Position numbers and translations under genes: made by a program
Assembly: GCA_021018995.1 (NCBI GenBank)
Contig: CM037588.1
Coordinates: forward strand, 36,391,000 to 36,454,999
Source: Chloranthus sessilifolius
Taxonomy: Eukaryota; Streptophyta; Magnoliopsida; Chloranthales; Chloranthaceae
Direction: 5' to 3'
Length of the DNA stretch: 64,000 bases
Notes under the pieces: generated by a model
What the model was told of the DNA's origin: nothing
Seen by the model: the letters and a program-made list of their open reading frames with translations, nothing else
Databases searched by the model: none
Shown: in pieces, positions 12,472 through 32,064 of the stretch
Layout of the letters: each line of letters starts with the position of its first letter
How positions within the stretch are numbered: the first letter of the stretch is position 1

Positions 12472-12552
12472 TCACCATACATCTCGCAGATACCTCCCCT
12501 CCATTTGCAGATTCTTGACCATGCTCTCAGCCTTTGAGCTGTTCATAGATCC
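12472..12552 (-). CDS. CPR: CPR last coding exon with stop codon
   Basis: 81 bases, phase 0, encoding [20 protein letters not shown] then YLRDVW and TGA at 12472-12474. The acceptor reads 'gtttcag'. It is too short for ordinary gene finding but joins exactly to the VQEQ end of the exon at 25765 and matches the conserved CPR C-terminus, including the terminal Trp that shields the FAD ring in the family. Confidence 0.9.

Positions 12553-32064: not shown

Follow-up and report, generated by a model that had tools for sequence, protein, structure and literature searches.

CPR gene structure at the locus

The minus strand of the window, by which we mean the whole 64-kb stretch of DNA analysed, carries the 3' part of a gene for a plant NADPH-cytochrome P450 reductase (CPR). 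Nine exons encode 368 residues; the sequence opens with YETGDHVGV and closes with YLRDVW and the stop codon. All nine visible exons are open and all eight introns between them are GT-AG and phase-correct, with lengths, in order, of 101, 80, 250, 4500, 92, 152, 98 and 13,212 bp. The exons and the two enlarged introns are placed as follows.

31836..32064, minus strand: CPR visible exon 1 (YETGDHVGV..., part of the FAD domain; not the first exon of the gene)
31651..31734, minus strand: CPR visible exon 2
31419..31570, minus strand: CPR visible exon 3
31072..31168, minus strand: CPR visible exon 4
26572..31071, minus strand: intron of 4,500 bp separating exons 4 and 5, the second enlarged intron
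26422..26571, minus strand: CPR visible exon 5
26252..26329, minus strand: CPR visible exon 6
25977..26099, minus strand: CPR visible exon 7
25765..25878, minus strand: CPR visible exon 8
12553..25764, minus strand: last intron, 13,212 bp, GT-AG
12472..12552, minus strand: last exon, 81 nt, 26 codons and the stop, ending ...GRYLRDVW

As six of the eight visible introns measure 80-250 bp, the enlargement is local. The initial annotation had placed a last exon of 27 codons, stop included, 13.2 kb from the preceding one, and its positions 12472, 12552, 25765 and 32064 are exact. The phase-perfect join by which it saw the C-terminus YLRDVW restored was recovered as well, the junction reading CAG/GTATTC...TTTCAG/GGATCT with GT-AG borders and the reading phase kept. 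It had also called the visible coding sequence intact, which is true of the nine open exons, but these cover the C-terminal half of the protein only; as the gene is visible as its 3' half only, intactness of the whole gene is not established. Within the 4,500-bp intron lies a pair of inverted repeats with a MITE-like look (26743-26938 and 27175-27372).

Identity and conservation of the encoded protein

Most P450s of the endoplasmic reticulum receive their electrons from CPR, which carries a membrane anchor and an FMN (flavodoxin-like) domain besides its FAD/NADPH half. The joined exons aligned over their full length, from YETGDH to the terminal W, with the structures 7sux (E = 6.4e-211) and 5gxu (E = 2.5e-196), which we take to be Sorghum CPR and Arabidopsis ATR2, the structure tables naming the enzyme only. 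Identity was 301/368 to the Sorghum protein and 289/368 to that of Arabidopsis. The domains FAD_binding_1 (PF00667, E = 7.9e-56) and NAD_binding_1 (PF00175, E = 4.4e-16) both scored above their gathering cut-offs, and the feature that marks membership, FAD- and NADPH-binding domains with a conserved C-terminal aromatic residue (W), is present; all four CPR chains of the alignment have the terminal Trp. Compared with 7sux and 5gxu, the FAD/NADPH half aligns here end to end, YLRDVW included, whereas the half that holds the FMN domain and the membrane anchor was not seen in the 64-kb window. At positions where Arabidopsis and Sorghum agree, departures numbered 2 of 21 in the last exon and 22 of 264 in exons 1-8, and on these alignments the last exon looks about as conserved as the other eight.

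A chromovirus within the last intron

The last intron holds a chromodomain Ty3 element, called A below, which itself carries two insertions.

13437..23445, minus strand: element A, chromodomain Ty3 (chromovirus) LTR retrotransposon, 10,009 bp, TSD GTTGG
14229..14765, minus strand: open frame of element A with a Chromo domain (PF00385, E = 1.6e-8)
15031..15546, minus strand: integrase of element A, zinc-binding domain PF17921 above the cut-off, core PF00665 below the Pfam gathering cut-off
16675..17718, minus strand: reverse transcriptase of element A (PF00078, E = 1.6e-17)
19005..21178, plus strand: element E, a small LTR element nested in A, TSD GATAG
22440..23084, no strand assigned: insert of about 645 bp in the right LTR of element A

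Element A is oriented like the CPR gene. The LTRs of the element, at 13437-14310 and 21881-23445, have the borders TGATG...CATCA, and an exact 5-bp TSD, GTTGG/GTTGG, flanks the element inside the last intron of CPR. The domains follow one another on the minus strand as reverse transcriptase, integrase and chromodomain, which is the chromovirus order. At the putative primer-binding site after the 5' LTR, A reads TTTGGTATATGAGC, a diverged form of the TTGGTATCAGAG of element A2, a relative of A found elsewhere in the window; the site may be of the initiator-Met-tRNA type. The nested element E has LTRs at 19005-19699 and 20542-21178; its final ~285 bp occur once more behind it, up to ~21491, and a primer-site-like motif occurs in it at 19705, on the other strand. 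LTR divergence is smaller in the nested E (K80 0.066, 636 sites) than in its host A (K80 0.133, 872 sites compared), the order expected for guest and host. Within the last intron, element A is flanked at 12767-13148 and 23645-23945 by members of a single short repeat family, which stand in both inverted and direct arrangement.

The earlier description of a 10 kb chromovirus with insertions in the last intron thus agrees with an element of 10,009 bp that took up E and the ~645-bp insert, and its view that a transposon had stretched the intron is supported by the exact TSD of A inside it. By arithmetic, the intron without element A and one copy of the TSD would measure 3,198 bp. The region is highly repetitive, and a misassembly through repeats might have joined the last exon to the rest of the gene; we regard this as very improbable, as the window contains 0 N, the TSDs on the two sides of A match exactly within the intron, and a phase-correct join to the specific matching exon 13 kb away is unexpected from random misjoining.

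The region upstream of visible exon 1 and the N-terminal half of CPR

In ATR2, some 342 residues precede YETGDH and make up the membrane anchor and FMN domain. By tblastn, no FMN-domain or other N-terminal CPR exon was found in the 64-kb window with the ATR2 sequence, and no FMN-domain exon with Sorghum CPR from residue 95 on. A profile of the two CPR sequences, covering the part after the anchor, was also run with filters off on all frames of 10 residues or more from stop to stop; exon pieces of <10 residues would escape it, and the membrane anchor was covered by the ATR2 tblastn only. The profile recovered all nine known exons at 29-132 bits; outside these its best match in the 64-kb window reached 0.8 bits, and its best match in the FMN part 0.6 bits. 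The latter (44132-43974, minus strand; E 8.5 in the ATR2 tblastn) corresponds to model positions just before visible exon 1, but 17 of 20 random first-order Markov windows scored at least 0.6 bits (range -0.5 to 6.6) and it was therefore treated as chance.

From visible exon 1 to the end of the window the sequence is occupied mainly by LTR elements, 92% of its 31,936 bp falling within two LTR-element spans.

32065..64000, minus strand: upstream of visible CPR exon 1 to the window end, 31,936 bp, no CPR exon found
33873..38663, minus strand: element A2, a relative of A, TSD CTCTG, interior reduced to about 2.7 kb
39274..64000, plus strand: element C, a related element split by B, 5' LTR at 39274-40414
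46645..63055, plus strand: element B, 16.4-kb LTR retrotransposon with LTRs of about 3 kb, nested in C, TSD TCCAT
54454-55089: RT of element B
55090-55560: RNase H of element B

Exact TSDs were found on elements A, A2, B and E. LTR divergence (K80) was 0.108 for A2, or 0.1125 with slightly different A2 ends, and 0.1225 for B. Element C still matches the interior of A2 at the window end and its 3' LTR was not seen in the 64-kb window, so the LTR span probably continues past 64000. Both LTRs of element B have an unusual content, the palindrome AGGCACCTAGGTGCCT recurring roughly every 29 bp in arrays of kilobase length (46894-47898 and 60178-61204), and two tandem arrays lie inside the same element at 57564-57946 (86-bp units) and 58770-59397 (162-bp units). 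Another tandem array, of 54-bp units, occupies 41595-42133.

Since no FMN exon was found in the window, either an intron of >31.9 kb precedes visible exon 1 or the 5' half has been lost. As an even larger set of nested LTR elements precedes visible exon 1, exons for the FMN domain are most likely to be located beyond 64000. The 31.9 kb upstream is then probably part of a still larger CPR intron, and the 13.2-kb intron is probably not the longest of the gene, that place belonging to the upstream intron of at least 31.9 kb. Alternatively, the locus may hold a 5'-truncated or broken CPR, left by a recent partial duplication or a TE-driven rearrangement while a complete CPR works elsewhere. Such a history would fit the search result, no FMN or N-terminal exon having been found in the 31.9 kb upstream, and the window end, being inside a retrotransposon, offers a plausible breakpoint. 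We consider it unlikely in view of the state of the exons, described below.

Intactness of the exons against the LTR clocks

The LTR pairs were used as neutral clocks, and decay of the 1107 coding nt and 16 splice sites was simulated in 4000 runs per clock. Had the C-terminal half of CPR evolved neutrally since the insertions, 10.7 (clock A), 9.2 (A2) and 7.4 (B) disabling events would be expected, whereas 0 were observed in these coding positions and splice sites; the fraction of simulated runs without any disabling event was 0 (A), 0 (A2) and 0.0005 (B). Methylated LTRs may mutate faster through inflated transitions and so raise the substitution expectation, for which reason the test was redone with indels alone. 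This gave expectations of 6.35 (A), 5.99 (A2) and 4.08 (B), with probabilities of none of 0.0018, 0.0025 and 0.0168; all indels are treated as disabling here, and as those not a multiple of three were 10/10, 10/11 and 17/22, the last two values are slightly too strict. For the last exon alone 0.84-1.11 disabling events were expected and the probability of none was 0.32, 0.38 and 0.42 with the three clocks, which is not decisive. That the C-terminal half has been a pseudogene since the insertion of element A was rejected, on 0 disabling changes against 10.7 expected (6.35 by indels alone).

The ages of the LTR pairs span about 4-44 Myr over elements A, A2 and B, depending on the substitution rate. 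A rate of 1.3e-8 per site per year places them at about 4-5 Myr. With 1.5e-9, close to the rate used in PMC8626473, they become about 36-44 Myr.

For a truncated CPR, the 0 disabling changes stand against 7.4-10.7 expected from the ages of A, A2 and B, an argument that holds only if the breakage is equally old; a recent partial duplication that carried old TEs along with the exons would give the same outcome. The decay test supports, without proving, splicing across the 13.2-kb intron. Splicing had been presumed kept in the initial annotation, and the 0 disabling changes against 10.7 expected favour that view, qualified by the gene being visible as its 3' half only.

Splicing and transcript ends

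We consider it probable that what is seen here is the 3' half of a normal plant CPR gene, enlarged in its introns by retrotransposons. The chromovirus would have entered a last intron that was once shorter, at a distance from the splice signals, and would later have received insertions of its own. We infer that the gene is expressed, RNA polymerase most likely transcribing through all its introns, the nested LTR stack included. The spliceosome would then join 25765 to 12552 by way of the intact GT-AG borders, and the protein would keep the conserved Trp at its C-terminus. Judging from Arabidopsis and rice, silencing of element A together with machinery of the IBM2/EDM2 type would probably block termination at poly(A) sites within the intron.

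Some of the evidence could be read as an intronic element that supplies an alternative 3' end, such that the locus makes mainly a CPR without its last 26 residues. If the last donor is left unspliced, translation continues after ...QEQ with nine residues, VFINKLTPQ, and stops, and the 26 residues with the terminal Trp are lost. Element A is sense-oriented and has two sense AATAAA motifs in its 5' LTR, the insert included, but none in its 3' LTR; the whole last intron contains 21 in sense and 16 in antisense, which indicates no strong poly(A) signal. Premature polyadenylation within intronic TEs is documented for Arabidopsis and rice mutants (PMC10241880, PMC7145194). However, the last exon farther downstream is about as conserved as the other eight and has kept an intact acceptor, and the segment that would be lost includes the C-terminal Trp present in all four aligned CPR chains. 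We consider it very unlikely that this is the main product. Poly(A) signals can be introduced by an LTR element in sense orientation. The orientation of element A is the riskier one for premature polyadenylation; a bias in introns against LTR elements of the same sense is described for human endogenous retroviruses (PMC1794541). One could further imagine element A as a switch, transcripts ending in its 5' LTR when silencing weakens and yielding CPR without the last 26 residues and the Trp. We think this highly improbable; if true, it would tie the P450 electron supply to the epigenetic state of one transposon.

Comparison with known TE-filled introns

Returning to a CPR gene with swollen introns as the preferred reading, its setting is a familiar one. 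In Chloranthus, introns that are long and filled with LTR elements are reported to be prevalent, and for magnoliids long introns are reported; in C. spicatus 876 genes exceed 20 kb, the comparison being based on 2,184 orthologues (PMC8626473). That report, like the present locus, has LTR retrotransposons as the major contributor to long introns, with coding lengths remaining similar; it is genome-wide, whereas here a single locus and the structure of its elements are dissected (PMC8626473). Exceptionally long introns are also noted for Magnolia biondii (PMC7917104), and conifers are described as having a few long introns per gene, with intronic repeats that are mostly short fragments (PMC4108047).

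A close single-gene counterpart is Arabidopsis AT3G60961, with a 10.2-kb intron of which 96.6% is a copia element and whose splicing was validated by RT-PCR (PMC5575664). A near-complete LTR retrotransposon forms the bulk of the intron in both cases. The element is copia there and a chromodomain Ty3 element with nested insertions here, and splicing is proven by RT-PCR there, while the present intron is known from its DNA sequence. Most intragenic TEs of Arabidopsis are short (PMC4417168). In rice, about 11% of genes have heterochromatic introns and OsIBM2 is required for full transcripts across them (PMC7145194); IBM2, with EDM2 in Arabidopsis, prevents premature intronic polyadenylation in Arabidopsis and rice (PMC7145194, PMC10241880). 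The genes under this control, Arabidopsis RPP7 and the rice OsIBM2 targets, likewise have a TE in an intron upstream of coding sequence, and the CPR locus, read from its sequence, would share their risk of premature polyadenylation; a dependence on IBM2 is conceivable by the same likeness (PMC7145194, PMC10241880). Genes of this class are marked by DNA and H3K9 methylation of the TE and by loss of 3' transcript in ibm2/edm2 mutants, marks that the CPR locus may or may not share.

Among the matches listed in the literature on CPR exons and introns and on intronic retrotransposon insertion, no published description of this CPR intron was found. For plant CPR gene structure none was found by title, the '16 exons' match being human POR. 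As TE-filled introns of this size have been published for plants, growth of plant genes by this route is known, and the CPR locus is a well-preserved further case, one that leaves current understanding unchanged. A CPR gene that tolerates TE-filled introns of 13 kb, and probably of >32 kb, illustrates clearly how TE-rich plant genomes expand within important genes. It may also serve as a warning for annotation, where a tight limit on intron length would be expected to drop the C-terminal 26 residues and to split the gene. As a minor feature, the window contains a tRNA-Gln (CTG) gene or relic at 10162-10232 on the plus strand, with an Rfam score of 39 bits.
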